Virus record (IMG/VR): IMGVR_UViG_3300021185_000673
Location: 1-28,114 of that record
DNA: 28,114 bases
From: a virus
Strand: one strand, 5' to 3'
Below the pieces are notes generated by a model that was not told the DNA's origin, ran no database searches, and saw only the letters and a list, made by a program, of their open reading frames with translations. Positions 10,940 to 26,123 of this stretch are shown here, piece after piece; within the stretch, counting starts at the first letter, position 1; each line of letters starts with the position of its first letter. Position numbers and translations under genes: made by a program.

Positions 10940-11436
10940 GCGTTTTTTCCAAAGAAAGTTAAAGAAACTCTATCTTTTCCACCGAAGCAGGGATTGTGTA
11001 GAGTTTGTGCGTCGAAGGAGATTGCACGATTCTCTTTCCATTCAACATACTCGTCTTTGATTGTTGTTCCTTGTCCTTTACCACCTATCATATAGAGGAC
11101 ACCAGAGCGCTCAAAGTTTCGGTCAATATGTTGAGGAATCTTGTCACCATATGTCCGTAGTTTCTTAAATTTCTCTACAGGGTGACGGAAGAATGTCATG
11201 AGTTCTACTTCTATACCCAAGTCTTCTCTTATTTTATTGGTTATCTCTTCAAACAAGTTTTTGAGGTTGTCACTACGATAACAATCAATCCAATCCTGCA
11301 CAGCGTAGTATGCGCCACCACGTCTTTCACCGTAGTCATACGCACTATACATTCTACACTCTTCGTAAGCCTGTAACAACTCTTCAAAAGAGTTTTGGTC
11401 TAGAAAGTTATCAACTACTTGGACTAAAGATTTCAA
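10936..11436 (-). CDS. 2OG-Fe(II) oxygenase-like protein
   Basis: The frame has 166 residues and a TTG start at 11436, backed by AAGGAAG six bases upstream and by the family-like start KSLVQVVDNFLDQ. The metal triad is His103-x-Asp105 in KIPQHIDRNFERSGVLYMI, then His147 in LHNPCFGGKDR; Arg156 could bind 2-oxoglutarate. It is a compact phage-type dioxygenase. It overlaps the cyclase gene by 26 bases and is the last gene of the curli-FecR-cyclase operon, which ends where the DUF932 promoter begins. A connection with the curli module, for example modifying the secreted protein, would be speculative. A hydroxylase, demethylase or halogenase role is open. Confidence 0.65.
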   Translation of the reverse strand: MKSLVQVVDNFLDQNSFEELLQAYEECRMYSAYDYGERRGGAYYAVQDWIDCYRSDNLKNLFEEITNKIREDLGIEVELMTFFRHPVEKFKKLRTYGDKIPQHIDRNFERSGVLYMIGGKGQGTTIKDEYVEWKENRAISFDAQTLHNPCFGGKDRVSLTFFGKNA

Positions 11437-13228
11437 TGGTTTCTTCCTTACCCTTCACCTTGATATCACCAATCTTCTTGGTTGGCATATCAATCTGGTC
11501 ATTCGTATAAGATGATATGATAGTCTTGTAATTTATATAGTCGCCCCGTGCGGCAGTGGCTTCTAGTCTTGCTGCAAGGTTGACCGCATCTCCAATAACT
11601 GAGTAATCAAATCTGGATTCAGAACCCATGTTGCCAACAATACAGTCCCCAGTATTAACTCCAGTCCCCACGTTGATAGGAGGGAGACCAGCTTCTTCAT
11701 ATTTTTTTCTAAGTTCATTGGTCTTTTCCTCAATCTGAATAGCAGACTTCACTGCCATCTCTGCGTGGTTGAGACAAGGTAACGGTGCGTTCCAGAATGC
11801 CATGATGCAATCACCCATATACTTATCTATAGTTCCACCATTGTCTTGAATGATTTTAGTCATCTGATTCAGATAATCATTGATAAGATGCACGAGCCCT
11901 TCGGGGTCATCGTTGTTTTTGTAGTGTTCTGATATCGGAGTGAACCCACAGATGTCCATAAACAGGAATGTCATCTCTTTGCGTTCACCACCCAGTTTCA
12001 TCAGCGATGGGTCTTTGGCTAACATGTCAACCATGTCAGGACTTAGATAAGTTCCGAACTGACCTTTAATCATTTGCTTTGCTTTGAACTGCGTATAGAA
12101 CTGAACAAACGAACCGTGTGCAAAGATTATAACAAATGTTATAACGGGGAAGATTGGGTCGAGTAACATATATGTTACATCAAACATATGTGATGCACCA
12201 TACACGAAACTTGAACTAATCAACACAAATAATCCACCCGAAATCACGATAGAGAGTTTAGATAACATGAATAGTATCACTATCGATACCACTATCGTTG
12301 TGAAAAGTTCATAAAACTTAAACTCTGGCATTCGTGTGATAGTCACACCATCAATCATCGTCTTCAACAGGTTTGCCTGAATGTCGTGGGGATACATCGC
12401 ACCAACAGGAGTCGATACAACAGATGTCCCCTTGAAGGTCGCACCCAGTATTGCAATGCTTCCCGCTGGTATCTGGTCTATCTCTGTGAAGGAATATCTC
12501 TTGAACTCGTTCCAGAATGCGATACGCACATTACTATTATCGTCTGTCTGAACTACATCGAACTTCGGTATGCGAACAAATCGTATTCCATAATCGTCTG
12601 TCTTGACTTGATAGGATACATCACCCGCAGCCACACGAAGGATATCCAATGCAAAGGCAGGATACATGCGTCCCTCAAAGTTCTCAATCAAAGGGACTCT
12701 CCGTGTGATACCATCAATGTCTTGTGTAGATGACATTGTTCCGTAACCGATTGCAGCGTCCATGATTTCAGGTCGCGCAAATAACATACCCTCAAGTTCA
12801 GGTCGGAACTCTACTGCGTCTCTTTCACCAAATGTTGCTACACCTACAGGTTTTGGTCGGGAGTCTATGTTCGTCTTATCGTTTGGTGCAATGGATACTA
12901 CTGCGTTCATATCAAACAACGCATCAGCAAGTGCGTCATCACCACCGAACCTGTCTGGTTCTGACAACAAGATATTGATACCCAGTATCGAGTTATTGAG
13001 TTTTACCAACTCATCTGCCATCGTTTCGCGGGGAATAGGATACTGACCGAACTCCTCTAGGGTCAGCTCGTCAATATCAATAAGGACAATCTGTTCTGAT
13101 TGTTTAGCGTCCTGTCCTCTCTGCATCGAGTCAAAGAAAGACAGTCTTGCGCTTTCGAGTAGAAAGGGGTCAAGCAGTCTCAGGGTTACCATCAACCCCA
13201 GAGTGATAAGGACGTGCCACGTTTTCAT
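11411..13228 (-). CDS. Membrane CHASE2-domain class III adenylate cyclase
   Basis: The 605-residue protein has an N-terminal hydrophobic anchor (about 6-24) followed by a CHASE2 extracellular sensor (about 30-300). Membrane segments follow (about 306-325, 328-345, 355-375), then a class III cyclase catalytic domain (about 415-600). Catalytic residues are present. Metal Asp425 is in FLFMDICGFTP, Asp473 in KYMGDCIMAFW, substrate Lys469 precedes it, Ser543 in YSVIGDAVN is the position that holds Thr/Ser in class IIIb enzymes, and Asn550 and Arg554 complete NLAAR. This predicts active ATP to cAMP conversion with a Lys/Ser pair rather than the guanylate pattern. The ATG overlaps the FecR TGA (ATGA). 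Homodimerisation is expected for this family. A phage-borne membrane cyclase is unusual. Confidence 0.9.
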   Translation of the reverse strand: MKTWHVLITLGLMVTLRLLDPFLLESARLSFFDSMQRGQDAKQSEQIVLIDIDELTLEEFGQYPIPRETMADELVKLNNSILGINILLSEPDRFGGDDALADALFDMNAVVSIAPNDKTNIDSRPKPVGVATFGERDAVEFRPELEGMLFARPEIMDAAIGYGTMSSTQDIDGITRRVPLIENFEGRMYPAFALDILRVAAGDVSYQVKTDDYGIRFVRIPKFDVVQTDDNSNVRIAFWNEFKRYSFTEIDQIPAGSIAILGATFKGTSVVSTPVGAMYPHDIQANLLKTMIDGVTITRMPEFKFYELFTTIVVSIVILFMLSKLSIVISGGLFVLISSSFVYGASHMFDVTYMLLDPIFPVITFVIIFAHGSFVQFYTQFKAKQMIKGQFGTYLSPDMVDMLAKDPSLMKLGGERKEMTFLFMDICGFTPISEHYKNNDDPEGLVHLINDYLNQMTKIIQDNGGTIDKYMGDCIMAFWNAPLPCLNHAEMAVKSAIQIEEKTNELRKKYEEAGLPPINVGTGVNTGDCIVGNMGSESRFDYSVIGDAVNLAARLEATAARGDYINYKTIISSYTNDQIDMPTKKIGDIKVKGKEETIEIFSPSS

Positions 13229-14331
13229 TGTTTGATATTTATGGTAGAACTACCACCACCGTTTACGGTGATAGGGTCAAACTCTCGCCCTTCTGTGTCA
13301 AGGGTTATTGTTGTCTCTTCGTTGTTCGACACAGATATCTCTACGATGTTCTGCACATTTCGAATTAAAGTGACTTTCACACCATCGACAACCGTGTTGA
13401 TTTGTGTGTCTCCATCAAACCCTTCTAGTGTCCCTTCTACAAGCGTTTCGCCTTTGTCGTCTTTTTCTTTCAACAACTCTGCGTCTAGGTCAGAGTATGT
13501 GTCAAGTAGATTTGTCAGGAAGTCCACATCCAGATAGTCAATGTCTAGTTCTGTGAACTCCAGATAATCACGTCCTAGTTCATCATCTTCGAGTAGTTGC
13601 TCATCGAGAAAATCGATATCAAGAGGATTGATATTCCTACGGCTGTTCAATGACGTATAGAACTCTTGTTCTGTCATTCTCTCTTTAGGTGGATTGATAA
13701 TCAAAATGTTATCCAGCATATCTAGAGTCAAGTCTAGAATAGCAGGATTGCTGGGAGGCATTTCACTCACAGAGGTTGTGGTGGATTGAAACGGTTTATT
13801 CAATACCACCTCACCAGTCATAGTTGCAACAATAATCTCACCCGATGATATCCCATTCACATCGGGCAACAACACTACAAGTGTGCGACCAAACTCGTCT
13901 ACGGTCACAGTAAAGTCTGTGCCGCGAATACCGATTGAGGCAGTCGGTGTTCTCAATCTAATATTCTCTTTTTCAATCGTCCCAAGTTTACCTGTAATGA
14001 AACGAGCAGTTCCCTGCGCGAATGTCATTGCAAGGTCAGACTTGCTTGGGTCATCATCAAACACCACATTGTCAATCACAATGCGTGTGTGTTCGGTCAT
14101 GCGAAGTTTCGAATCATCGACAAACTTCACCTGCATACGCCCCTCGCCTGTGCGAAGGTCGTCTTTTGATATTATATCGAACCCTTTTTCAGGTTCGAGT
14201 TCATTGGTATCTCTTACAACTTGTCTCCAGCCGACTGCTCGGTCAATGAGACCTACATCCTTACTGACAGCCGGTAGCGGTGCCAGAATCAGACTGAGCG
14301 ATGCATAGAGTATTATCCGTGGTAGCGTCAC
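13225..14331 (-). CDS. Periplasmic FecR-domain protein
   Basis: I prefer GTG 14331 (368 residues; GAGGG five bases upstream) over TTG 14343. It overlaps the end of the curlin-like gene by 71 bases. A signal peptide of about 23 residues (RIILYASLSLILAPLPAVS) targets it to the periplasm. The FecR domain is plain at about 45-145: LRTGEGRMQVKFVDDSKLR, then GTARFITGKL, and TPTASIGIRGTDFTV at 128-142. The C-terminal half is acidic and repetitive (LDIDFLDEQLLEDDELG, LDIDYLDVDFL), ending in a Gly/Ser/Thr-rich tail, so it may bind Ca2+ or act as a spacer. FecR proteins often sit beside CHASE2 cyclases in bacteria, and the pair here probably works as an envelope sensor. No transmembrane anchor other than the signal peptide is seen. 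Confidence 0.85.
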   Translation of the reverse strand: MTLPRIILYASLSLILAPLPAVSKDVGLIDRAVGWRQVVRDTNELEPEKGFDIISKDDLRTGEGRMQVKFVDDSKLRMTEHTRIVIDNVVFDDDPSKSDLAMTFAQGTARFITGKLGTIEKENIRLRTPTASIGIRGTDFTVTVDEFGRTLVVLLPDVNGISSGEIIVATMTGEVVLNKPFQSTTTSVSEMPPSNPAILDLTLDMLDNILIINPPKERMTEQEFYTSLNSRRNINPLDIDFLDEQLLEDDELGRDYLEFTELDIDYLDVDFLTNLLDTYSDLDAELLKEKDDKGETLVEGTLEGFDGDTQINTVVDGVKVTLIRNVQNIVEISVSNNEETTITLDTEGREFDPITVNGGGSSTINIKQ

Positions 14332-14998
14332 CTGAGCCCTCAATTTGTATGTCTAATGTATCAGACTGCAACGTTGACTCTTGTTTGATATCAATGTCCC
14401 AGTAGTTTGTTGTTCCAACGCCATCGATTGTTGTAGAGTGACCATCATATCCGTCACCATCATAATCGATTGTTACATTACTTCCTAAGAAGTCAATGCT
14501 GTTTGTTGCGTTGTTGATGTCAATATCAGCAGTTATGCTGTTATAGTCACCGTCAACAATCCAGTCAACATCTGCGCCCGTGGCTTGGTCGTTATTACCA
14601 ACGCTCAAGTCCAGTGTGTTATTACCACCATCCAAATCGATTACTACATTACCGCTACCAGCACCATAGGTGTCAGTTCCGTCAATGTCGATTGTGACTG
14701 TGTTGGTGTCGCCATCGATGTCTAAATCAACATCGGTGTTGTCACCTATAATAGCACCAAGAACTTTGTTGGTATCACCAACGGTATCGATACTCAGATT
14801 GATGTTATCACCATCAACCTTCATTTTGGTCGTGTCATTAGCGTTATTGCTAATTACGTTGCCACTACCATCTTGAGTAATGTCGATATCTGCACCAGAC
14901 CCTACTTGGTCGATGTAGACCGCATTATCAGCCCATACAGGCGATGTCCCTGCGTTTACTAGGAACAACATCACAAATATTCTTTGCAAAGTGTTCAT
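14261..14998 (-). CDS. Acidic curlin-like secreted protein
   Basis: The ATG at 14998 has AGGAGAG five bases upstream and lies one base after the CsgG-like stop, giving 245 residues. A signal peptide ends after VWA (residue 23). The start of the mature chain reads NAVYIDQVGSGADIDITQDG, with Gln31 and Gln42 and the Q-x-G spacing of curlin repeats. The rest is a long run of approximate repeats with Gly-Asp-x-Asn and I-x-I-D turns, very rich in Asp, Asn, Thr and Gly, typical of a beta-solenoid that might bind Ca2+. Two cysteines (232, 244) sit near the C-terminus. It is the likely substrate of the CsgG-like pore just upstream. It differs from classical CsgA in having few Gln and in its high acidity. 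A secreted fibre, adhesin or amyloid is possible. Confidence 0.75.
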   Translation of the reverse strand: MNTLQRIFVMLFLVNAGTSPVWADNAVYIDQVGSGADIDITQDGSGNVISNNANDTTKMKVDGDNINLSIDTVGDTNKVLGAIIGDNTDVDLDIDGDTNTVTIDIDGTDTYGAGSGNVVIDLDGGNNTLDLSVGNNDQATGADVDWIVDGDYNSITADIDINNATNSIDFLGSNVTIDYDGDGYDGHSTTIDGVGTTNYWDIDIKQESTLQSDTLDIQIEGSGDATTDNTLCIAQSDSGTATGCQ

Positions 14999-14999
14999 T

Positions 15000-15812
15000 T
15001 TACTCTCCTGTGAATGTCCAGAACTGTTTTCTGTTTCCAAGTTCTATCAGTTCTAAGACACCTGTTTCAATAGCCCGTTGAGTGGCAATCGAAACGCTTT
15101 CGTTACGGGCAGTTCCAGACTCTATCTCAACGAGTCTAGTTCCCTGTTCTACATACCGAAATACATCTCCGCCAAATGCGACAGATAGTATGGTCTTACT
15201 TGTTATGACATCAAGCAATACCTCACCAGTCGCAACACTTATCAACCTCATGTTGATTGTCACCGTGTCACGACTAAACTCTCGTGAAGAACCGATGCCA
15301 AGATATCTTGCACCCGAGCCTCCACTTTCGGTAGAGTGGTCATATCCCACAATACCGCCTGCAATAATCATACCAGCGAATGTCAATGCTGGTAGTTTCT
15401 TTGCGCCATCTCCGTCATAAGAACTTCGTGTCTGTCTTATGAGTTGTCTTTCTTTTGTCAACCAGTCCAATGCAGTCCTATCGACTACCTTGAAGAAGTT
15501 ACCATTAGATGCACGAGTCAAAGCACGAATCAGATATACATCTGGTGCTTGAGTGACTGCGGTGCTGAATGATGTCCCACCGCTTGCGTTCTGTCTTTTC
15601 TGCCCTGTTTGGTCGGTGAACGAATAAATCGCTACCGTTGGTTTTCTTATCGGAGGTTCAATGTTCTGTAATTGTTCTGTAAGAAGATTTGATTGAACTT
15701 TGACTGGTTCTGGTTTCGCTGGTATATCCCAACTCGTTCCACCTAGAGTGGTGCAACTAGAAACCAAAATCGCCGATAGGAATAACAATGACAGTTTGGC
15801 TACCATCTTCAT
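15000..15812 (-). CDS. csgG: CsgG-like outer-membrane curli secretion pore
   Basis: The 270-residue lipoprotein has a lipobox VSSC with Cys20 after a hydrophobic signal, predicting outer-membrane anchoring. Key CsgG segments are AIYSFTDQTGQ (61-71), SFSTAV (81-86, with a Phe at the constriction-loop position), ERQLIRQTR (121-129), IAGGIVGYD (150-158), GGSGARYLGIG (164-174), INMRLISVATGEVL (186-199), SKTILS (205-210) and RAIETGVLELIELG near the C-terminus. These cover most of the family length. It would form a nonameric secretion channel in the outer membrane. The gene overlaps the CsgF-like gene upstream by 56 bases and is followed after one base by the curlin-like gene, so the order CsgF, CsgG, substrate is compact. 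A CsgG in a phage is exceptional. Confidence 0.9.
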   Translation of the reverse strand: MKMVAKLSLLFLSAILVSSCTTLGGTSWDIPAKPEPVKVQSNLLTEQLQNIEPPIRKPTVAIYSFTDQTGQKRQNASGGTSFSTAVTQAPDVYLIRALTRASNGNFFKVVDRTALDWLTKERQLIRQTRSSYDGDGAKKLPALTFAGMIIAGGIVGYDHSTESGGSGARYLGIGSSREFSRDTVTINMRLISVATGEVLLDVITSKTILSVAFGGDVFRYVEQGTRLVEIESGTARNESVSIATQRAIETGVLELIELGNRKQFWTFTGE

Positions 15813-16290
15813 CAGTTACCGTTAACTCCACTTTGTTTTCTACATCATCTTTCACATATGAGATACCCGCACCCTCAATCTCAAATTCACCTTGATTGGT
15901 TGGGTTCTCACCGAACATCTCTTCTACGAGTTGTCTGGACAGTGTAGAGTAAATTCGACTTTCTACGTTTCGTATAAACTTAGCAAGTGTCGTATTCTTT
16001 GCGTCTCGTTCTAATTGTTTTTGTAAGTCTTCTAATTCTTGTTCTAATGCTTGTTTGCGTGATGTCTCTTGATTCTCAATCGTCAGATAGTGTGATGATT
16101 GATTGACACCATTGAATGATGGCGACTTGAAGTTGTGTTCGATTGGCGCGCCTATCGCATGACCTATAGACAGACCCCAACAGATACCAACTGAAAACCA
16201 CAATACTGGACTAAAGATTAACTCTGATTTAGTCTTTCCTGACTTGGCCAGCATCTCCCATGCGGTTTGTTCTCTACTCGTTCTCTTCAT
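15757..16290 (-). CDS. csgF: CsgF-like curli pore accessory protein
   Basis: The product has 177 residues; a hydrophobic signal (about 28-47, ILE-like segment VLWFSVGICWGLSIGHAIGA) is followed by a mature chain starting around HNFKSPSFNGVNQSSH (52-67). The FKSPSFNG motif parallels the FxNPxFGG N-terminal peptide of CsgF that plugs into the CsgG pore. A helix LAKFIRNVESRIYSTLSRQL and a C-terminal beta unit ending VELTVTDEDGSQTVIVIPIG match the remainder of CsgF. A longer linker between signal and helix includes a coiled-coil-like LEQELEDLQKQLE. GAGG lies seven bases before ATG 16290. It is predicted to sit at the cell surface and gate or anchor fibre growth. An extended N-terminal cytoplasmic stretch of about 25 residues is unlike standard CsgF. 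Confidence 0.75.
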   Translation of the reverse strand: MKRTSREQTAWEMLAKSGKTKSELIFSPVLWFSVGICWGLSIGHAIGAPIEHNFKSPSFNGVNQSSHYLTIENQETSRKQALEQELEDLQKQLERDAKNTTLAKFIRNVESRIYSTLSRQLVEEMFGENPTNQGEFEIEGAGISYVKDDVENKVELTVTDEDGSQTVIVIPIGDFGF

Positions 16291-16891: not shown

Positions 16892-17182
16892 GCGGGTCTA
16901 TTGCGCGACCAACCGTTGGGGATTACTCCTAATAATTAGTGGGGACTTCTGTTGCTAGGCGTCCCCTGACCCCGAAGATTACGCCGCTAGGCGAATATCC
17001 TCATGTGCGAAATTATCGTTTGCACTTACGTTGTTTCTTACGGTTAAGGTCGCTTGCACACCTATTCTCCACTCACCTATTCAATACCTGTCGAACCTAT
17101 TTCGCCCCCTCAGAGAGAGTTTGGTGGAGGCGGTGGGTATTGCACCCACGTCCAGTATACCTTTTAGTTCGCTTCAACGAAT
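16892..17182 (-). ncRNA. ssrA: Circularly permuted two-piece tmRNA (ssrA)
   Basis: Transcription order is the acceptor piece first. It ends in the T-arm GTGGG-TGCAATA-CCCAC (17149-17133), the acceptor 3' strand CGCCTCC (17132-17126), discriminator A and an encoded CCA (17124-17122). A 12-base spacer (17121-17110) follows, then the coding piece starting GGGGGCG at 17109. GGGGGCG pairs with CGCCTCC in a 7-base acceptor stem with one G-U. The coding piece opens GGGGGCGAAATAGGTTCGAC, the usual tmRNA 5' signature. It encodes the tag and continues into pseudoknot-like stems (GGGGAC 16966-16961 with GTCCCC 16946-16941). Outer boundaries are approximate: 17182 from the late promoter, 16892 from the terminator. 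The RNA would rescue stalled ribosomes with SmpB and tag nascent proteins. Permuted genes are known in Alphaproteobacteria, some Cyanobacteria and some Betaproteobacteria. Confidence 0.93.
16979..17023 (-). other. tmRNA tag-peptide reading frame
   Basis: GCA at 17023-17021 is the predicted resume codon. The frame reads ANDNFAHEDIRLAA followed by TAA (16981-16979). The hydrophobic LAA end is the expected protease degron recognised by ClpXP-type proteases, and ANDNFA is reminiscent of alphaproteobacterial tags. The central HEDIR is acidic/basic and unlike the Caulobacter tag EEFAV. Confidence 0.9.
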
Positions 17183-17187
17183 ACCTT

Positions 17188-17195
17188 TATTTATA
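17188..17195 (-). promoter_or_regulatory. T4-type late promoter of the tmRNA
   Basis: TATAAATA on the minus strand overlaps the TAA stop of the 68-residue gene (GGAGTATAAATA). The predicted start near 17182 falls just before the tmRNA acceptor piece, so the tmRNA would be made late in infection. Confidence 0.75.
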
Positions 17196-17397
17196 CTCCA
17201 AGAATATTTCCTACTTTACTGATGTCAAGAGTTCCGCCATTCCGCATATGTTCCTCTACCTGTTCGAAGTAGAATGCGGCATCATCGTGGCCAAACTCAT
17301 TAAGAACTTCTTTACACTCTTTGAAGAACAACATAGTCTTCATCAGATTACCGTCACCCATAGGTTTAGATTTTTTACCAGCTCTTTGATTAGACAT
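17191..17397 (-). CDS. Hypothetical small protein
   Basis: A 68-residue product with ATG 17397, one base after the previous stop, and AAGGTCAG upstream. The sequence starts MSNQRAGKKSKPMGDGNLMK and contains a helical FFKECKEVLNEFGHDDAAFY and EHMRNGG. It is basic in front and acidic in the middle, with no signal or known motif. Its stop codon is embedded in the late promoter of the tmRNA. Function unknown. Confidence 0.6.
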   Translation of the reverse strand: MSNQRAGKKSKPMGDGNLMKTMLFFKECKEVLNEFGHDDAAFYFEQVEEHMRNGGTLDISKVGNILGV

Positions 17398-17902: not shown

Positions 17903-17931
17903 AATATAACATGGTAGAACAGATATGTCAA
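17903..17931 (-). promoter_or_regulatory. Sigma70-type extended -10 promoter
   Basis: The -35 is TTGACA (17931-17926) and the -10 is TATATT (17908-17903). The 17-base spacer ends in TGT. The TGA of the -35 is the stop of the 78-residue gene upstream (17930-17928). It drives the small genes 17874-17191. Confidence 0.8.
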
Positions 17932-18164
17932 GCGCTTTTTTCCATTTCAAGCATCTTTTTTTCGATGTCGTTTAGAGGTTCTTTCTCATTCTGCATATCA
18001 ATTGCAACCTTACGGGCTTCAACAAGACGTGTGACTCTGCGTTTCACAGACTTAGGAACTGCACCACCATTAGAGTATTTTTCACCCCACATGGCGAGTT
18101 CACCATCAATGTAGTTGACACCCTTGATTGCGGCGTCTGTTGTGCGTTGTAGTTTTCTATTCAT
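17928..18164 (-). CDS. Hypothetical basic small protein
   Basis: A 78-residue product starts MNRKLQRTTDAAIKGVNYID and is rich in Lys, Arg and Glu. It has a helical core KSVKRRVTRLVEARKVAIDM and an acidic tail NDIEKKMLEMEKSA. No motif is recognised. AAGGAA lies upstream, and the start is one base after the beta-ketoacyl synthase stop, so it is co-transcribed with that gene. The TGA stop is part of the next promoter's -35 box. Function unknown. Confidence 0.6.
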   Translation of the reverse strand: MNRKLQRTTDAAIKGVNYIDGELAMWGEKYSNGGAVPKSVKRRVTRLVEARKVAIDMQNEKEPLNDIEKKMLEMEKSA

Positions 18165-18165
18165 A

Positions 18166-19281
18166 TTATATTCCTTCTACTAATATTGATGCGTTTTTAC
18201 CACCGAACCCCATACTGTTCTTCAGTGCGTATTTGTGTTTTCCTACATTAAGTTCGGTAGGAATATCTAAATCACAATCATTGATGTTGTGATTGTATGG
18301 GATGATATTATTGTTCAAACAATTCAGAGTGTAAATCAGTTCTACGACACCACTTGCTCCAATACAATGTCCAAGTTTAGACTTAAAAGCAACAACCTTT
18401 GTATTAGGAATTGTTTCTCTAATCGCATTGTATTCAATCTCATCACCCAAAGGCGTTGATGTTGCGTGTGCGCTAACAAATGAGATTTCTGATATATCAC
18501 CACAAAGTGCAGAGTTCATTGCACGTTTGATACCTTTAGCTTCAGGGTCGGGCGCGACTGGATGACCAAAAGCCGCATCATTAGACAAACCAACTTCGTG
18601 AATGTAACCATAAATTTTTTGGCCATTCTGTTTTGCGAGCTCTTCTCTTTGTAACACAAGACAACCAGCACCTTCACCCATAATAAAACCGTCACGAGAC
18701 TTATCAAATGGTGCAGAGTGTGTTCCTAGTGCGCCAAATGATGCATACCAATTCAGGTCTAGTTCTGATGTCGCAGCATCAGAAGCGCCCACCACAACAT
18801 AATCATACTCATCAACAAGACGCTTAGCATAATCAATATTATATAAAGAAGATGCACATGCTGCATTCAGACCCGTGGAAACTCCATAAAAATCATAGAT
18901 GCGACAGATAAGTCCTGATAAAAAATCAGCAGGGAGTTGTGTAGTATCTCTGGGTTTAGACCGCTTACCATTAAGAGTGTTTAACATAATTTGTGAACGT
19001 TTCTTTGTCCCATTAGTCACACTGGAATGTATTACCGCAACCTTACTAGAGTATGGAACATCAATCAATGCCTGTTCAACTGTATGTAAAGCCATCTTAC
19101 TTGATTTGGTTAGTGACTGATATAAAGTTGATTTGAGATTCTCAGGTATCAACAAATCATAATCCGAATAGAAACATCCATCAGGCTCATGTTTCTTCAT
19201 CAGATAGTTTGCGAGACACAAATCTGGATTATTACCCAGAGTGTCAACCAAACCCATACCAATGATAGCGACCCTATTCAT
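18166..19281 (-). CDS. Beta-ketoacyl-ACP synthase (KAS I/II, FabF/FabB-like)
   Basis: The 371-residue protein has the thiolase-fold KAS architecture. Catalytic Cys142 is in NAACASSLYN, His272 in SAHATSTPLGD and His305 in SKLGHCIGASG, with Lys300 just before. The C-terminal Gly-rich NSMGFGGKNAS (355-365) is typical of the family. All three catalytic residues remain, so decarboxylating condensation of acyl and malonyl-ACP is predicted. It is shorter than the usual 410-residue enzymes, with the N-terminal part trimmed. A phage-encoded KAS could redirect host fatty-acid elongation, secondary-metabolite-like chains or membrane lipid composition. The ATG shares one base with the preceding stop (TAATG). 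No other fatty-acid genes are visible. Confidence 0.88.
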   Translation of the reverse strand: MNRVAIIGMGLVDTLGNNPDLCLANYLMKKHEPDGCFYSDYDLLIPENLKSTLYQSLTKSSKMALHTVEQALIDVPYSSKVAVIHSSVTNGTKKRSQIMLNTLNGKRSKPRDTTQLPADFLSGLICRIYDFYGVSTGLNAACASSLYNIDYAKRLVDEYDYVVVGASDAATSELDLNWYASFGALGTHSAPFDKSRDGFIMGEGAGCLVLQREELAKQNGQKIYGYIHEVGLSNDAAFGHPVAPDPEAKGIKRAMNSALCGDISEISFVSAHATSTPLGDEIEYNAIRETIPNTKVVAFKSKLGHCIGASGVVELIYTLNCLNNNIIPYNHNINDCDLDIPTELNVGKHKYALKNSMGFGGKNASILVEGI

Positions 19282-19616
19282 TAGTCTCTTCCTTCTTTAT
19301 CATGAACATGTAATTGAATGAGTGCGTAGTGCAACACTTTGAGGATGTCTTTGCGATTGTAACCATCCTTGTTACCATATCGTTGTGCATACTTCATGAT
19401 GTTACCGATACAGAACCCATCACCATGACCACCGTCGATAATAAACTCAGTTGCTTGAAACTTGTTCTTAGAATAGTGTTCACCATATGTGTTGTTTACA
19501 TAAGCAGTCAACTCACTAAGATATTTGTTTTCATCATATTTGTAATCTAATAGATTACTAACATATACAGGCGTTCCATCGAACCCCGCTTTGAGATTTA
19601 CTTTTTTACTATTCAT
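19281..19616 (-). CDS. DUF3310-like phage protein
   Basis: I choose ATG 19616 (111 residues), supported by AGGTGGAAG upstream and the TAATG overlap with the endolysin stop. The product begins MNSKKVNLKAGFDGTPVYVS and contains ATEFIIDGGHGDGFCIGNIM, KYAQRYGNKDGYNRKDILK and VLHYALIQLH. The pattern GFxxGNxxKY, followed by Arg and a Lys/Asp helix, resembles DUF3310, a phage family often near nucleotide metabolism genes. The function of DUF3310 is unsettled. The promoter 19756-19728 lies within the endolysin gene upstream. Assignment is by pattern only. Confidence 0.6.
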   Translation of the reverse strand: MNSKKVNLKAGFDGTPVYVSNLLDYKYDENKYLSELTAYVNNTYGEHYSKNKFQATEFIIDGGHGDGFCIGNIMKYAQRYGNKDGYNRKDILKVLHYALIQLHVHDKEGRD

Positions 19617-20212
19617 TACTTCCACCTATAAAATATATGTTCACCAATCTGACCTACCATGTGCATACCCTTTGCAGTTGCCCAACGAGGACTTACATAG
19701 GTTGCATGATAGTGTGTCGCACCTTCTGTTATACCACGAAACTCGTCGTGTGTCAAGAACATTCTTGCGATATACTTAGATTTCTCCCATGCCTGGCCTG
19801 GCCGAGGGTCATCACTGCGTCCATCACAATACCACGAGAACTGACAACGATTACGGCGTGGGTATTGTTCACCATCACTACCCGTATATGTCTTTGACTC
19901 ATAGACCACATCACAAACAGTATTCGGCCAGCGAGGGTCGTTGACACGGTTCTGCGTCACATCTGCGACTGCATACAACCCTGCGTCAAGTTCATTCCGT
20001 GCCTCGTGATACAGGTTCAGTGCCATACATAACATGTCTTCTTCTGTGTAAGACAGTTCTTCGATAAGTAGTGTTTCGGATGAGTCTGATATGTGTTGGA
20101 CAACAACTTCCTTGTCCTTCAACAACACCTCAACACCAAGATTAAAAACAGAGATGATGGATAACGCTAGTAACAATACTAGGGCAATCCGTGTGATATT
20201 TTGATTTTCCAT
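19616..20212 (-). CDS. SleB-type cell-wall hydrolase (endolysin)
   Basis: I take ATG 20212 (198 residues); a longer GTG frame would include the promoter. An N-terminal hydrophobic segment (about 7-27, TRIALVLLLALSIISVFNLG) suggests a signal-anchor (SAR-type) membrane start. The hydrolase_2/SleB domain follows at about 60-198: MALNLYHEARNE (catalytic Glu70), VADVTQNRVND, CQFSWYCDGRSDD, TEGATHYHATYVSPRWA and IGEHIFYRW. It should cleave peptidoglycan and would be the phage lysis enzyme, released from the membrane at the end of infection. Its promoter at 20247-20219 places the predicted start on the ATG itself. It is separate from the curli-like operon, and no obvious T4 lysozyme (gp e) is in this window. 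Confidence 0.88.
   Translation of the reverse strand: MENQNITRIALVLLLALSIISVFNLGVEVLLKDKEVVVQHISDSSETLLIEELSYTEEDMLCMALNLYHEARNELDAGLYAVADVTQNRVNDPRWPNTVCDVVYESKTYTGSDGEQYPRRNRCQFSWYCDGRSDDPRPGQAWEKSKYIARMFLTHDEFRGITEGATHYHATYVSPRWATAKGMHMVGQIGEHIFYRWK
19728..19756 (-). promoter_or_regulatory. Sigma70-type extended -10 promoter within the endolysin gene
   Basis: The -35 is TTGACA (19756-19751) and the -10 is TATAAC (19733-19728). The 17-base spacer ends in TGG. It has the same design as the other promoters here and could start transcription of the DUF3310-like and KAS genes despite lying inside coding sequence. Confidence 0.6.
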
Positions 20213-20218
20213 TCTAGT

Positions 20219-20247
20219 ATTATACCAAAAGACCTTAGATTTGTCAA
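20219..20247 (-). promoter_or_regulatory. Consensus sigma70-type promoter of the endolysin gene
   Basis: The -35 is TTGACA (20247-20242) and the -10 is TATAAT (20224-20219), a perfect consensus. The 17-base spacer ends in TGG (extended -10). The TGA in the -35 is the stop of the upstream 2OG-like gene. The start would fall at about 20212, the A of the endolysin ATG, implying a leaderless mRNA. Confidence 0.85.
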
Positions 20248-20906
20248 GCACTTTCTATCTCAAATATTAGGTCTTGTATCGCGTCATACGCTTGGTCATG
20301 TAGTTCTGTGTTCTTTCCATAGGGAAACTTAAACGCAAGAGTGAAACGAGGACATTCAGTCCACGCAGCGTGCCAACAGTGGTGTTCTTCTTCGTCCTTA
20401 CGACCAAATCGATACCACCGAGCCTGCCACCCTTTGACATCTTCGTGTTTGACAAACTCATCATTCTTCTTATCATAATAAGTAAAGTATCCATCACCAC
20501 TCTCACTCCATGTGAGAATGAGTTGATACCCAAAAGCATTCCAGTTTGTGTGCCAACCGACAAATCCTTTGGGTGGATAGTATGATGTCAGAGAGTTATT
20601 GTTTGCACCGAAGATACGAACCAGTTCATTCTTAGTCCATAGTTTGAGTGGTTCGAATATTTCGGGTCTTTTCTTTGCACCATGTGACACCTGAAACCCG
20701 TATCCCTCTTCAGGAAATCCAATGTGGTCTCGTTTCATAACTTCCCACAGATGGTCGGGTTTACAATACTGTTCACCCTCTCCGATTGGAGCAGGGCCAA
20801 GATGCGAACTAAGTTCTACCATCGCATCGGTATGCGGTAAAAACTTATCAAGTGTGTCATCCAGAGTTTTGAGAAACTCTTTGTTACGGATTACAATCTC
20901 AGTCAT
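20244..20906 (-). CDS. 2OG-Fe(II) oxygenase-like protein with HxN in place of HxD
   Basis: The 220-residue product resembles phage dioxygenases of the double-stranded beta-helix type. Around the first strand, PPKGFVGWHTNWNAFGYQ carries His119-Thr-Asn121 where the family normally has His-x-Asp. The distal histidine is probably His179 in HCWHAAWTE, and Arg187 in CPRFTLAFKF could bind 2-oxoglutarate. An Asn in place of the Asp could weaken iron binding or leave an open site, as in halogenases, where Ala or Gly is usual. Substrate is unknown. It ends in the endolysin promoter and overlaps the ThyX gene by eight bases. No signal peptide. It might instead be a structural relative with lost activity. 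Confidence 0.6.
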   Translation of the reverse strand: MTEIVIRNKEFLKTLDDTLDKFLPHTDAMVELSSHLGPAPIGEGEQYCKPDHLWEVMKRDHIGFPEEGYGFQVSHGAKKRPEIFEPLKLWTKNELVRIFGANNNSLTSYYPPKGFVGWHTNWNAFGYQLILTWSESGDGYFTYYDKKNDEFVKHEDVKGWQARWYRFGRKDEEEHHCWHAAWTECPRFTLAFKFPYGKNTELHDQAYDAIQDLIFEIESA

Positions 20907-21552
20907 TCAATGCTTTCACGATGTCGGGAAAGTGAACATCGATAATCTCCCAACACTTGTCGGCAATCAGTGCGTGTTCCTTCTGCGTTCCGTTACCACG
21001 GCGAAGTTCACAATAGTGAATCCAACTACGCAATGTGCCTGACATATACAATGTCGATTGGGTTAGTCCTTCGGGTAACAAGGCACGAGCCTGTTCCTTC
21101 GCAATACCCTTTGCAAGTGCGTCTTGATATGCGAGGTCTGCCTGACCCTGCACCTTCTTCTGTTGCATCTGCCACCACTCGTTCAGGTCACGGTCATCAG
21201 TCTCTACAGAGTTCTGACGGTTCTTCTCATCCTGTAGTCGTGCCTCACGAGTCTCAAACTCAGTCGCTACAGCATACCGTTGAGAGAACTCTTGGAACGA
21301 GAATGAACGGTGACGCAAAATCTGACGTGCGATGTCGCGTGTTGTTTTGATTTCCATAGTCATATGCACCATCTCAAATGGTGACCAGTGTTGTTCTCGA
21401 ATCAAGTAACGTAATAACTTGGGTGCGGTCTCAGTATTATTCTGATTGGCAGGATTACTGACCCGTGCGGTATATGCAATCAGGTCTGCGGCAGTCTTAC
21501 AATCTGTGATTGCGGACGGTTTACTCAATGCGATAAGATTAACTTCGCTCAT
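20899..21552 (-). CDS. thyX: FAD-dependent thymidylate synthase
   Basis: The 217-residue protein has the full ThyX signature RHRSFSFQEFSQRY at 80-93 (RHRxxSxxxxSQRY) plus a late Ser and conserved stretches LPEGLTQSTLYMSGTLRSWI and EIKTTRDIARQILRH. The length fits the family. It methylates dUMP to dTMP using methylene-tetrahydrofolate and FAD, supplying thymidine nucleotides for phage DNA synthesis. Many alphaproteobacterial and marine phages carry ThyX instead of ThyA. The start ATG overlaps the upstream stop (ATGA), and its end overlaps the 2OG-like gene, so it is in the same transcription unit. No unusual feature is seen. Confidence 0.97.
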   Translation of the reverse strand: MSEVNLIALSKPSAITDCKTAADLIAYTARVSNPANQNNTETAPKLLRYLIREQHWSPFEMVHMTMEIKTTRDIARQILRHRSFSFQEFSQRYAVATEFETREARLQDEKNRQNSVETDDRDLNEWWQMQQKKVQGQADLAYQDALAKGIAKEQARALLPEGLTQSTLYMSGTLRSWIHYCELRRGNGTQKEHALIADKCWEIIDVHFPDIVKALND

Positions 21553-22247
21553 TTCAAATACTCCAAAACTTGGTCAACGGTTAATGTCTTAAAATCTAGA
21601 CCAAAATTAATTCTAACACCTGTGTCACTCTCTCTATGAACAGAGTGCCACTCCCTGTGATTGAAAACAATCCACTCATTTTCTTTCAACGTTGTTGATA
21701 CTACAACATCTAACTTTTTCATATCAGGTATGTAATACTCTTCGTAGTGAATAAATGGTTCGGTCTCTCTATACCATTTGGTAATTTCACCCTCACCCTG
21801 TAATAGACAAAAGAAACTGGCCTGTCGCGCATGACCGCGATGAGGGTATAAGATTTCACCACCATCTTGAATTTGCACAACAGGTATGATTTCATCCATC
21901 GGAATACCAACAAGTTTGTGCGTCTCTTCTTTGATATGTTGTGTCATATCATCAGGAAGGTCATATTGGTCGATAGTGATTTTACTCTTAATACCAAACT
22001 CGCGAACCATCCTGATTTGACGGCGTTTCCATTCTCGTGCCTTGTCAGCGCCGTAACGTTCACGGATTAGATGCCACTCAGTCCAGTCTTTACGGTCAAT
22101 GAAATGAAAGTCACGAGGACGAAGTGTCATTACATCATGATACTTAGAGTCGGAATTGGCAACTTCATGAGACCACTCAAGGCATTGTGCTTTCACATCA
22201 CTCAAAAAGTCCTTTGGTATATTTTTTAGAATATCCATATATGTCAT
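21549..22247 (-). CDS. Putative cupin/2OG-like hydroxylase
   Basis: The 232-residue product has AAGGAAT before ATG 22247, supporting the start MTYMDILKNIPKDFLSDVKA. Segment VVQIQDGGEILYPHRGHARQ (123-142) and a later FNHREWHSVHRESDTGVRIN (195-214) resemble the two His-containing strands of a double-stranded beta-helix. Candidate ligands are His136, His139, His201 and Arg212. The usual HxD is missing, so this could be a cupin, a degenerate 2OG enzyme or a different fold. No signal peptide or membrane segment is present. It neighbours a second 2OG-like gene and ThyX, and overlaps its neighbours by four bases on each side. Confidence 0.45.
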   Translation of the reverse strand: MTYMDILKNIPKDFLSDVKAQCLEWSHEVANSDSKYHDVMTLRPRDFHFIDRKDWTEWHLIRERYGADKAREWKRRQIRMVREFGIKSKITIDQYDLPDDMTQHIKEETHKLVGIPMDEIIPVVQIQDGGEILYPHRGHARQASFFCLLQGEGEITKWYRETEPFIHYEEYYIPDMKKLDVVVSTTLKENEWIVFNHREWHSVHRESDTGVRINFGLDFKTLTVDQVLEYLK

Positions 22248-22467: not shown

Positions 22468-23838
22468 CTACTCCATCTTAAAATCTTTGAATCGTTCTGC
22501 GGCTTCTGACTTATCAAATGCAGGACGGTCATCCACTACGGGGTCATCCGCATCGTCATCATCAGTGAGTCGCATCTTAGCACGGTCAACCTTCAGAGTA
22601 AACCGTTGGTATTTGGTCGGGTCGTTGTATCTGTTCTTCAACTGTTTGACCATAATCTTACCCATCGAGTTCAGTTCATCGTTTGAGACGAGGGCGAACA
22701 TGAGGTCTGCGGTAGCGGGTAGTCCAAAAGATTCGGACGTGTCTTCAAGCCCAACATCGTCATTAGAATAACCAGAACGAGTCGTTTGCGTTGCAGACAT
22801 AATCGGAACGTTGAACTCGACTGCGAGTCCTCTAAGTTCCTCTGCAATACTTTTAATGTATGAATATGAGTTGATAGCACCGCCCATTCCTTTCATTCGA
22901 CTTGACGCACAGATATTTAGATAGTCAATAAAGATGAGTTCAGGAACAAAGTTCTTCTTCAGTTTCAGTTCATTCAACAACGCACGGAAGTGAGATGTGT
23001 TTGCCTGACCCGTAGGATATTCTTTGATAATAAGTTTACCATTGGTCTTGGCAGATAGTGTAGACACCTTGTCAGTGAACATATCCTTTGACAGGTTCTC
23101 CAACTGGTCAATCGGAACATTCAACAGGTTCGCATCAATACGTTCTGCGATACGTTCCTCTGCCATCTCCATAGTGATATACAATACATTGCGGCCCTGC
23201 GACAATGCAGATGCACCCACATGACACATGAACAATGATTTACCGACACCCGTTCCTGCGAGTGCAATGTTCAGCGTCTTGTTAGGCAAACCACCCTTGG
23301 TAATCTGATTGAACAGGTCAAGGTCAAAAGGAACACGTTCTTCCTGTTGGTGATAGAAATCAAACCGTTCATCTACATTCTCCAGATAGTCGTGACCGAT
23401 GTTGGTATCAAAGGTCACACCCAGAGCCTTACTCAGAACATCAGGTATTGCGTTCTTCTGTAGGTTTGCATGTTTGCCATCAATGATAGAGATACTCTCC
23501 ATCACTGCGTTGAACACTGCACGGTCTTGACACCACTTCTCAGTGCGTTCAATCAACCACTCAAGGTTCTCAGGTTCGTGTGTAAAGATGTTAGGGAGCA
23601 GTTCAACTGCGATGCGATAGTCTTCTTCACTCAGACGGTTGTTCTGGTCTATCTCAATCTTGAATGCTTCGAGAGTCGGAAGTTTATTGTAATCCGAAAC
23701 AAATTTCGCAATCTCTTTGAACAGACCTTTGTAAACACCTTCGAAATAATCCGGCGCAATAAACGGAAGAACTTTACGCATGTATTCTTCATTAGTCAGT
23801 AAATTCCTCAGAACTGTCTGTTCCAAATTGATATTCAT
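22468..23838 (-). CDS. Replicative DNA helicase, DnaB/gp41-like
   Basis: The 456-residue product has the DnaB family C-terminal RecA-like core. The Walker A motif GTGVGKS is at 195-201 (NIALAGTGVGKSLFMCHVGA), Walker B LIFIDYLNICA at 301-311, and SATQTTRSGYSNDD forms the later conserved motif. The N-terminal domain (about 1-150) is helical. It would be the ring helicase that unwinds phage DNA at the fork, equivalent to T4 gp41. The start ATG 23838 has GAGGAAC upstream and overlaps the 135-residue gene by 47 bases. A dedicated promoter lies at 23974-23946, inside that gene. A UvsX-type recombinase is encoded just upstream in the transcription order. Confidence 0.95.
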   Translation of the reverse strand: MNINLEQTVLRNLLTNEEYMRKVLPFIAPDYFEGVYKGLFKEIAKFVSDYNKLPTLEAFKIEIDQNNRLSEEDYRIAVELLPNIFTHEPENLEWLIERTEKWCQDRAVFNAVMESISIIDGKHANLQKNAIPDVLSKALGVTFDTNIGHDYLENVDERFDFYHQQEERVPFDLDLFNQITKGGLPNKTLNIALAGTGVGKSLFMCHVGASALSQGRNVLYITMEMAEERIAERIDANLLNVPIDQLENLSKDMFTDKVSTLSAKTNGKLIIKEYPTGQANTSHFRALLNELKLKKNFVPELIFIDYLNICASSRMKGMGGAINSYSYIKSIAEELRGLAVEFNVPIMSATQTTRSGYSNDDVGLEDTSESFGLPATADLMFALVSNDELNSMGKIMVKQLKNRYNDPTKYQRFTLKVDRAKMRLTDDDDADDPVVDDRPAFDKSEAAERFKDFKME

Positions 23839-24199: not shown

Positions 24200-24276
24200 C
24201 GTCCCTCCAAATATACTGATACAACAATCGCGAGACCGACAATGAAAATCAAACCTAAGAAATCATTCAACGGCAT
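24196..24276 (-). CDS. Probable 26-residue membrane microprotein
   Basis: A 27-codon frame (26 residues) lies between uvsX and the acidic gene. Its ATG 24276 sits within the last codons of uvsX and its TGA overlaps the next ATG (ATGA), so it bridges the two genes by coupled translation. The product begins MPLNDFLGLIFIVGLAIVVS and ends VYLEGR; a hydrophobic stretch of about 17 residues predicts a single membrane helix. The SD for the following gene (GGAGG) is inside its last codons. Small coupled membrane proteins are easily missed. It could be a tether or regulator, but function is unknown. Confidence 0.55.
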   Translation of the reverse strand: MPLNDFLGLIFIVGLAIVVSVYLEGR

Positions 24277-25297
24277 CGACAATCTCATCCATGTCTACTT
24301 TTTGCGCCAGTCCGATTGAGTATTGCGCTTTGATGAAGTCTGCAAAGTCGGTGTTCTCGAAGATGGGTGTCCAAAATTCCTTCGTGAGTGTTTCCTTCTG
24401 ACGAACTTTCGCCTCGTCACCAGCGACACTATACCAACCATTAGATGGTTTAACAACATAACCGCCAGCCAAAGCAACATCAAGGAGACCACTAAACTGC
24501 TGGACGCCACCTTCCCAAGAAACAGAGATAGGGATTTTACTTTTCTCTTTAACATAACGAGACTTCTCTACATTGATTACAAAGTGATAACCTTTGATTT
24601 CTGTGCCAACCTTGTCTTGTTGGCGACCCAGAATCCAGATGTTGTCAGCACTGTAGTAGATACCTGTGCCACCACCTACGATGTCTTTCGGGAAGAGACC
24701 AATCTCTTTGTATGTGTGGTTGACGGCCAGCATTGGAATGTTCTTCATAGTCAGGTATGGGGTTATCATACGAAACAAACCTTTCAATGCTTTAGCACGA
24801 GACATATCTGCAACCGACTTTTCATTGATTGCATCTTCGAGTTCTTTCTTAGATGCAAGGTTACCAATGGAGTCGATGACAACGATGACATTATCTTCTC
24901 GTGTCAGTTCCTCAAGTTGACCAATAATGTCAAACTTGAGTTCCTCTACATTCGCAATCGGCGTATGCAGAACTCGGCTAGTGTCAATCCCGAACTGCTC
25001 GAAGTAAGATTGGGGTGAACCAAACTCACTATCATAGAAAAGCAGAACTGCATCTTTCTTCTCTCTCAGATATGCACCTGCCATAAGCAGGGCAAAAGAG
25101 GTCTTAAAGTGCTTACTTGGGCCTGCAAGGACTGTAAGTCCTGGCGTGACACCACCGTCAATACTACCAGATAGGGCAACGTTCACCATTGGAACATCTG
25201 TTTGCACCATATCTTTTTCAGTAAAGAATTTACTCTCCGACAGAATCTCCGTCGTTTTGATTTTCGAGTTCTTCTTCAGTTTGTCCATAATCGACAT
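24263..25297 (-). CDS. uvsX: UvsX-type RecA-like recombinase
   Basis: I use ATG 25297 (344 residues) as start because GAGG lies nine bases upstream, whereas ATG 25318 has no SD. The protein shows Walker A GPSKHFKTSF (59-68, unusual SKHFK form found in T4-like UvsX), Walker B NVIVVIDSIGNLAS, and late motifs GGGTGIYYSADNIW and INVEKSRYVKEKSK. The length is close to T4 UvsX. It catalyses strand exchange on ssDNA and supports recombination-dependent replication with the helicase downstream. The promoter 25379-25351 lies in the dehydrogenase gene upstream. Overlap of 68 bases with that gene fits the compact layout. Confidence 0.95.
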   Translation of the reverse strand: MSIMDKLKKNSKIKTTEILSESKFFTEKDMVQTDVPMVNVALSGSIDGGVTPGLTVLAGPSKHFKTSFALLMAGAYLREKKDAVLLFYDSEFGSPQSYFEQFGIDTSRVLHTPIANVEELKFDIIGQLEELTREDNVIVVIDSIGNLASKKELEDAINEKSVADMSRAKALKGLFRMITPYLTMKNIPMLAVNHTYKEIGLFPKDIVGGGTGIYYSADNIWILGRQQDKVGTEIKGYHFVINVEKSRYVKEKSKIPISVSWEGGVQQFSGLLDVALAGGYVVKPSNGWYSVAGDEAKVRQKETLTKEFWTPIFENTDFADFIKAQYSIGLAQKVDMDEIVDAVE

Positions 25298-26123
25298 TGT
25301 TTGATTCCTCACGTTCATCTAATTCATATTGTTTACGATATTCATTGTTAATACTAACACATTTCTCAAGTAATGTCAAGCCCCTATCGAAAGCTGTAAA
25401 CGCTCTTGTGTCTTTGGGGAAACATGCGCCGCCGAACCCACGTTTACCATCATAGCCTGGCACACGAGTGTGTCCTGCACCAATTCGGTCATCTCTACCA
25501 ATCCCACGAATAACTGTAGGATAGTTAGCACCAAATTCTGTAATCGAATCATAAAGTTGATTGAAGAAGGTCACCTTTGTCGCGAGGAAAGAATTCACAC
25601 CATACTTAACAAATGCAGCTTCGACAGCCGTCATGAAGTGATATTCTTTCGCATTACATAAACTGAAGTTTCTATAGATATCAGCGACTGCTCTACAGGC
25701 GTCAATCGAACCACCAATGATATGATAATCTGCGTTTACAAATGCTTCCTTTGCACTAGACTCAGTTAGAAACTCTGGGTTGACAACAACCCTCTTTTCG
25801 GTTTCTTCGTCAAATGCAGATTCGACGAGTCGTGCAATAATATCAGGGGTCACCGTTGATTTAATAACAACACCACCCTGTGTATGTTCGACCAGTTTTA
25901 GTGTGGCATCCTCAACAATACTAGCGTCGATTCTACCATTCTTACCCATTGGAGTAGGAGCACAGATGAATGTTAGATTGGGATTCCATTCAACTAATTC
26001 ATCAATGGTTGTTCCATGTTTTGGGTCAACATAAAACTTTTCAACCTGTGGATGTGTAAATGCGTAGTCAACCGCCTGACCCACAAATCCATGACCCACA
26101 ATACCAATTTTTAATTTAGACAT
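25230..26123 (-). CDS. Shortened UDP-glucose/GDP-mannose dehydrogenase-like protein
   Basis: The 297-residue protein starts with a Rossmann NAD site, KIGIVGHGFVGQAVDYAF (GxGxxG at 8-13). Residues typical of UDP-sugar dehydrogenases follow: ICAPTPMGKNG near 53-63, NPEFLTESSAKEAF near 115-128, KYGVNSFLATKVTFFNQ with Lys173 and Asn177, and catalytic Cys234 in RGFGGACFPKD. These predict NAD-dependent oxidation of UDP-glucose or a related nucleotide sugar to its uronic acid in two steps. At 297 residues it lacks the C-terminal UDP-binding domain of about 120 residues normally present, and ends in an acidic tail instead. It overlaps its epimerase neighbour by TAATG. Activity of such a shortened form is uncertain. 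Confidence 0.8.
   Translation of the reverse strand: MSKLKIGIVGHGFVGQAVDYAFTHPQVEKFYVDPKHGTTIDELVEWNPNLTFICAPTPMGKNGRIDASIVEDATLKLVEHTQGGVVIKSTVTPDIIARLVESAFDEETEKRVVVNPEFLTESSAKEAFVNADYHIIGGSIDACRAVADIYRNFSLCNAKEYHFMTAVEAAFVKYGVNSFLATKVTFFNQLYDSITEFGANYPTVIRGIGRDDRIGAGHTRVPGYDGKRGFGGACFPKDTRAFTAFDRGLTLLEKCVSINNEYRKQYELDEREESNNVDYGQTEEELENQNDGDSVGE
25351..25379 (-). promoter_or_regulatory. Sigma70-type extended -10 promoter for uvsX
   Basis: The -35 is TTGACA (25379-25374) and the -10 is TAGTAT (25356-25351). The 17-base spacer ends in TGT. It lies within the dehydrogenase coding region, about 47 bases ahead of the start at 25297. Confidence 0.75.

Follow-up and report, generated by a model that had tools for sequence, protein, structure and literature searches.

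The window analysed here is an entire IMG/VR record (IMGVR_UViG_3300021185_000673; 28,114 bases), which is a fragment of a larger genome. It encodes a beta-ketoacyl-ACP synthase (ketosynthase, KS) in the following surroundings, all on the minus strand.

17928..18164, minus strand: 78-aa protein directly after the KS gene, at the place occupied by a desaturase in sister phages
18166..19281, minus strand: beta-ketoacyl-ACP synthase (thiolase fold, FabF/FabB type), 371 aa, assigned by Pfam, structure and alignment
19281..19625, minus strand: DUF3310 protein, whose stop codon shares a single base with the KS start codon (TAATG)
19616..20251, minus strand: SleB-like cell wall hydrolase (endolysin), a conserved neighbour upstream of the KS gene
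20244..20906, minus strand: 220-aa conserved phage protein with 2OG-oxygenase-like motifs, seen by eye only
20899..21552, minus strand: ThyX thymidylate synthase, a conserved neighbour
22468..23838, minus strand: DnaB-like phage replicative helicase, T4-like context
24263..25318, minus strand: UvsX recombinase, T4-like context

Phage-type genes flank the KS gene (UvsX, DnaB, ThyX, DUF3310, SleB-type endolysin, primase, and epimerase). As judged by DnaB, the nearest named phage was C48C1 of the Kyanoviridae (78%), which shares with the window the gene order primase-epimerase-UDP-glucose dehydrogenase-UvsX-DnaB. From this gene set and the common order it follows that the window phage, an aquatic one, is T4-like. 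C48C1 itself gave no KS match, and no named phage matched the window at the DNA level. T4-type gp23 capsid matches were found in 5 of the 28 viral KS records searched, four of them strong. The DUF3310 gene was close to the KS gene in 20 viral loci. The 220-aa protein had no family match. The 78-aa protein, 83-88% identical (BLAST) in close relatives, was considered as an ACP on account of its suitable size and rejected, as it has neither an Asp-Ser-Leu motif nor a family match.

Several other features of the window were recorded. A 232-aa gene with a weak cupin match (21549-22247, minus strand) has no counterpart at the same position in L006 or L012, both of them close relatives. A permuted two-piece tmRNA of the alphaproteobacterial type was detected at 16938-17232 (minus strand; 120 bits in Rfam), having been missed by ARAGORN, and was present in L005 and L006 as well; two-piece tmRNAs have been described for marine phages (PMC9004378). 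The tmRNA type hints at an alphaproteobacterial host. Curli-type genes lie at 14261-16290 (minus strand) and encode CsgF, CsgG, and a further product whose curlin-repeat match is weak and below the cut-off; a FecR-domain protein (13225-14343) comes next. Partial curli operons are on record for pelagimyophages in the available part of PMC7029224. Finally, a 605-aa protein encoded at 11411-13228 (minus strand) combines a CHASE2 sensor with an adenylate/guanylate cyclase catalytic domain and matches PHROG 35576 (unknown function); such a signalling enzyme seems out of the ordinary in phages.

The KS reading frame spans exactly 18166..19281 and starts with ATG. Both KS domains were recognized well above their Pfam cut-offs (Ketoacyl-synt_C, E = 1.3e-21; ketoacyl-synt, 4.8e-21), and together with the thiolase fold they place the protein in the KS superfamily (PF00109/PF02801). 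Its best solved relative was FabF from Escherichia coli (E = 3e-40), and the AlphaFold2 model (pLDDT 92.4) resembled FabF and FabB most closely among PDB folds, with TM about 0.9. The sequence-only reading had described a phage KS with intact Cys142, His272, His305, and Lys300; these residues are indeed all present at those positions, in agreement with Pfam, the FabF alignment, and the model, and constitute a complete Cys-His-His triad plus Lys. Across 32 viral relatives Cys142 and His272 were invariant, and Lys300 and His305 were conserved in at least 90%. When 41 viral sequences were aligned with E. coli FabF, the catalytic Cys and first His were found in 41 of 41 and the Lys and second His in 40 of 41, the missing residues being gaps and one sequence, L010, ending at the contig end. 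This conservation is far beyond chance. The gate elements are likewise present: Asp265, Asn396, Phe400, and Asn404 of FabF correspond to D235 (the loop-2 Asp), N355, F359, and N363, the gate loop reading G358-F-G-G-K-N363. Triad, Lys, and gate residues are those of the elongating KSs (KAS I/II), whereas the score against the FabF equivalog TIGR03150 was 203 bits, short of the cut-off of 493.75.

Other identities were rejected. Pfam domains, active-site conservation, and the predicted structure rule out a chance reading frame or a broken gene. A KAS III (FabH) enzyme is contradicted by the triad, which is Cys-His-His and not Cys-His-Asn, and by PF08545, which remained below its own cut-off. Chain-length factors lack the active-site Cys; as Cys142 is present, the earlier assignment to condensing enzymes rather than to chain-length factors stands. 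Thus, the gene is a genuine, intact phage ketosynthase of the elongating type.

The number of viral relatives recovered depended on the query: a single sequence found 2, a three-sequence alignment 9, and a seven-sequence alignment at least 102 IMG/VR contigs encoding KS relatives. Eighty of the 102 matches were retained, with identities of 35-57% among them. The same seven-sequence alignment, searched against one genome per species for 84,980 cellular species, returned KSs of many phyla with a best identity of about 30-40%, and the identity of the window KS to bacterial FabF/FabB was about 28%. Except for L010, viral KSs measured 371-408 residues, compared with 401-426 for cellular ones, and differed from FabF by several short deletions. 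As the relatives are similarly short, 371 residues is normal for the family, at its short end; the supposition of a reduced form is not borne out, since full-length relatives of this size carry every active-site element.

Profile searches and phylogeny separated the viral KSs from the cellular ones. The window scored 452 bits with a viral profile built without its subclade, and no cellular KS in the set exceeded 286 bits; conversely, a cellular KS profile gave the window 225 bits and cellular KSs 516-694 bits, its own training rows included. In two maximum-likelihood trees, for which no root was inferred and in which the viral branch is long, the viral KSs formed one clade with full support (100/100) opposite E. 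coli FabF, FabB, and KS paralogues. A phylogenetic check against FabF and FabB had been proposed from the sequence, and its outcome was neither: under partial cellular sampling (a motif search plus about 700 genomes), the window KS fell outside the cellular FabF/FabB clade and apart from the sampled paralogues, in the separate viral clade. At E<=1e-88 the viral profile matched none of 385 genomes in an alphaproteobacterial class draw and none of 296 in a Bacteroidota phylum draw. Within the cellular sample used, the clade is apparently virus-only, and a closer cellular lineage is possible. KS matches in the named phage collection were set aside: their identity was low (26-38%), several were annotated fabB or came from unannotated or fragmentary records, and they are probably bacterial DNA within phage records.

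The viral gate loop has its own signature, GFGG(K/R)(C/S/N), as against GFGG(T/H/Q)N in cellular KSs. At the position of FabF Thr403, Lys or Arg was found in all 40 readable viral sequences; the position of Asn404 held Cys or Ser in 36 of the 40, and the window retains Asn. Cellular KSs carry Thr, His, or Gln followed by Asn at these two positions. Asp265, Phe400, and Asn396 were conserved across the 41 viral KSs, Asp265 being Glu once. Asn404 and Asp265 hold the gate loops of FabF together, according to the available part of PMC7138838. Because residue 404 is replaced in most viral KSs, their gate chemistry probably differs from that of FabF. The position of FabF Ile108, the pocket gate, was Ser, Thr, or Ala in most viral sequences; with so small a residue there, the deep acyl pocket seems accessible. 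The ACP interface of FabF consists of two basic patches, regions 1 and 2, in the same available text (PMC7138838). Region 2 persists, with Lys or Arg at the positions of Arg127 and Lys128 in 35 and 39 of the 41 viral sequences, respectively; the viral clade has not kept region 1 (Lys65/Arg68/Lys69). Given the loss of the region 1 patch and the replacement of Thr403 and usually Asn404, the substrate or carrier of the viral KSs may differ from that of ordinary fatty acid synthesis.

Comparison with close relatives pointed to exchange of the KS gene between phages. Along 18210..19280, identity between the window and L006 dropped to 57-72%, whereas the flanks were about 84-97% identical; the drop began about at the KS start and recovered at the KS end. 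Synonymous differences from L012 and L006 affected 4-12% of sites in UvsX and DnaB but 65-76% in the KS gene, the amino acid identity of which to these two relatives was 53-57% (L012 being represented by its first 142 residues only). For the 78-aa gene, which lies across the KS gene from UvsX and DnaB, the difference from L006 was 16% of synonymous sites. Fast protein evolution as the cause of the divergence is disfavoured, because synonymous sites, too, are near saturation in the KS gene, and those flanking it in the close pair are not. We therefore deduced gene exchange, in which the KS allele was probably swapped whole, as a cassette between near-identical flanks. Non-synonymous change in the KS gene was far less than synonymous change, consistent with purifying selection. 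Whole-allele exchange is seen in genes under diversifying or host-matching selection, and its occurrence here suggests selection for different alleles, for example matching different host ACPs or lipids.

Directly behind the KS gene, and in the same orientation, 14 of 82 viral loci carry a desaturase gene that abuts on it or overlaps its end. Desaturase matches occurred in 14 of the 28 viral records searched, many of the rest being fragments. In the reciprocal scan from the desaturase side, a viral KS adjoined 21 of the 33 closest viral desaturases, partly on the same contigs as the loci found from the KS side. The KS-linked desaturases scanned belong to PF00487, carry three histidine boxes, and have acyl-CoA desaturases as their solved relatives. 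At least two desaturase types, mutually 28% identical, occupy the KS-adjacent place; the desaturase of L018 had no tblastn match among 50,697 phage records. The 28-kb window shows no desaturase, and the 78-aa gene stands at this place. No desaturase was found there in the window's subclade (L004, L005, L007, and L010), which is nested in the tree among KS-desaturase phages; the desaturase was thus most simply lost from, or relocated away from, the KS-adjacent place in this subclade. Only 1 of the 28 viral records gave an ACP family match, a doubtful one within a 331-aa frame, and no recognizable carrier protein was found among the window proteins scanned. In L001 (499-3383 and 7543-9962), the viral KS gene has near it genes for two radical SAM-like proteins, a MaoC-like hotdog protein, a desaturase, and an Asp_Arg_Hydrox protein with weak LpxO/OlsC matches, which could be a fuller lipid-modifying module. 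In L054 and L073, four tandem paralogous genes (184-206 aa, cluster c99) lie immediately upstream of the KS gene.

The fold, the active site, the phage context, the clade, the frequent desaturase coupling, and the near-absence of a recognizable phage ACP support a reading to which we assign a probability of roughly 0.6: the protein is probably an active elongating KS of a virus-specific clade, which would use host ACP and alter membrane acyl chains. We infer the steps of acyl transfer and condensation, and the passage from enzyme class to infection phenotype, as follows. During infection host acyl-ACP would donate acyl groups to Cys142 of the KS, which would condense them with host malonyl-ACP, assisted by His272, His305, and Lys300; host reductases and dehydratase would complete the elongation cycle, and the acyl chains of the infected cell would become more abundant, longer, or different in their unsaturation. 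In sister lineages, the KS would share its acyl pool with the adjoining desaturase, to which it is probably coupled in translation; in the window's subclade the desaturase may have been lost or may be encoded in a part of the genome that the record does not cover. As the KS is often encoded beside a desaturase, KS-carrying phages probably rework host membrane lipids in infection. A change of host lipids for virion release had been suggested from the sequence; the lipid role is plausible, and the link to virion release found no support.

Three other explanations were weighed. The KS might have been recruited to a specialized product (a polyketide-like, hydroxylated, or amino-acyl compound, or a competitor-excluding surface lipid or LPS acyl group) rather than to bulk elongation. 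The distinct GFGG(K/R)(C/S) loop, the lost region 1 patch, the MaoC-like, LpxO/OlsC-like, and radical SAM proteins near the KS of L001, and allele swapping resembling that of surface-active genes all speak for such a role; yet most loci lack the extra genes of L001, the recurrent partner is a plain desaturase, and the window proteins scanned included no recognizable carrier protein. We consider it unlikely, if the most credible of the three. Phages often produce inhibitors of host enzymes, and the KS could accordingly work against host FabF/FabB or ACP, as a decoy or antagonist that binds ACP, forms mixed dimers, or throttles lipid synthesis. The lack of a dedicated phage ACP (one doubtful match in 28 records) would fit, but a decoy would not need the catalytic Cys, His, Lys, and His that have been retained over very deep divergence, and coupling to a second lipid enzyme, the desaturase, also argues against this improbable role.

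Least probable of all is an ordinary, recently acquired host fabF carried as random cargo. Although the best Pfam and NCBIfam matches are FabF-type, the equivalog score (203 against 493.75 bits), the best cellular identity of about 30-40%, the 100/100 viral clade, and the lack of viral-profile matches at E<=1e-88 in the 385 alphaproteobacterial-draw and 296 Bacteroidota-draw genomes oppose it, and it was rejected on trees and profile scores. An active elongating KS acting on host ACP remains our preferred reading. A bolder reading is more tentative and, in our estimate, falls well short of an even chance: the KSs of many T4-like aquatic phages might form an old virus-only family, frequently with a desaturase as partner, in which the gate loop has been rewired and ACP docking altered, and which makes acyl chains foreign to the host, its alleles being swapped between phages to suit host or competitor.

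The sequence-only reading held that such enzymes are very rarely phage-encoded, which is at odds with the 102 or more contigs from one collection and with earlier reports. The combination of fabF and a desaturase in phages is already known: the available text of PMC7029224 reports fabF and a stearoyl-CoA desaturase for the freshwater pelagimyophages of group PMP-D. Judged by description only, PMP-D resemble the present family as myophages of aquatic alphaproteobacteria with a FabF-like KS and a desaturase; in that text they are without curli-type genes, whereas the window phage has these and no desaturase in its 28 kb. The same available text treats PMP-D fabF in one sentence and contains no clade, active-site, or operon analysis. 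Rhodobacteraceae (roseobacter) prophages carry fabG-acpP-fabF in host-like order, as far as the accessible portion of PMC8224337 describes them; they share a phage-associated FabF, but the viral KSs studied here are solitary or desaturase-coupled, reside in T4-like phages, and have no clear ACP. Accessible parts of PMC10653327, PMC5704599, and PMC12783922 report fabF from viromes.

With bacterial FabF (KAS II, TIGR03150) and FabB (KAS I) the window KS shares the fold (TM about 0.9), Cys-His-His-Lys, Asp265, Phe400, the GFGG gate, and the region 2 basic pair; it differs by its identity of about 28%, its separate clade, the lost region 1 patch, and several short deletions. Cyanophage lipid desaturases, reportedly treated by Roitman et al. 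(as cited in PMC8224337), resemble the KS-linked desaturases as a case of phage-encoded acyl desaturation. The virus-specific KS clade, its gate signature, and the desaturase coupling were not described in the accessible portions of the literature examined, which covered few subscription papers.

Phage fatty acid genes are usually catalogued singly, as cargo borrowed from the host. The condensing enzyme described here appears instead to represent a stable viral gene that has diversified and has signature residues of its own and a recurrent desaturase partner. If it is active, aquatic T4-like phages would control both chain elongation and desaturation of the host membrane, and the viral KSs would allow ideas on KS gating and ACP recognition to be tested on enzymes of non-cellular origin.
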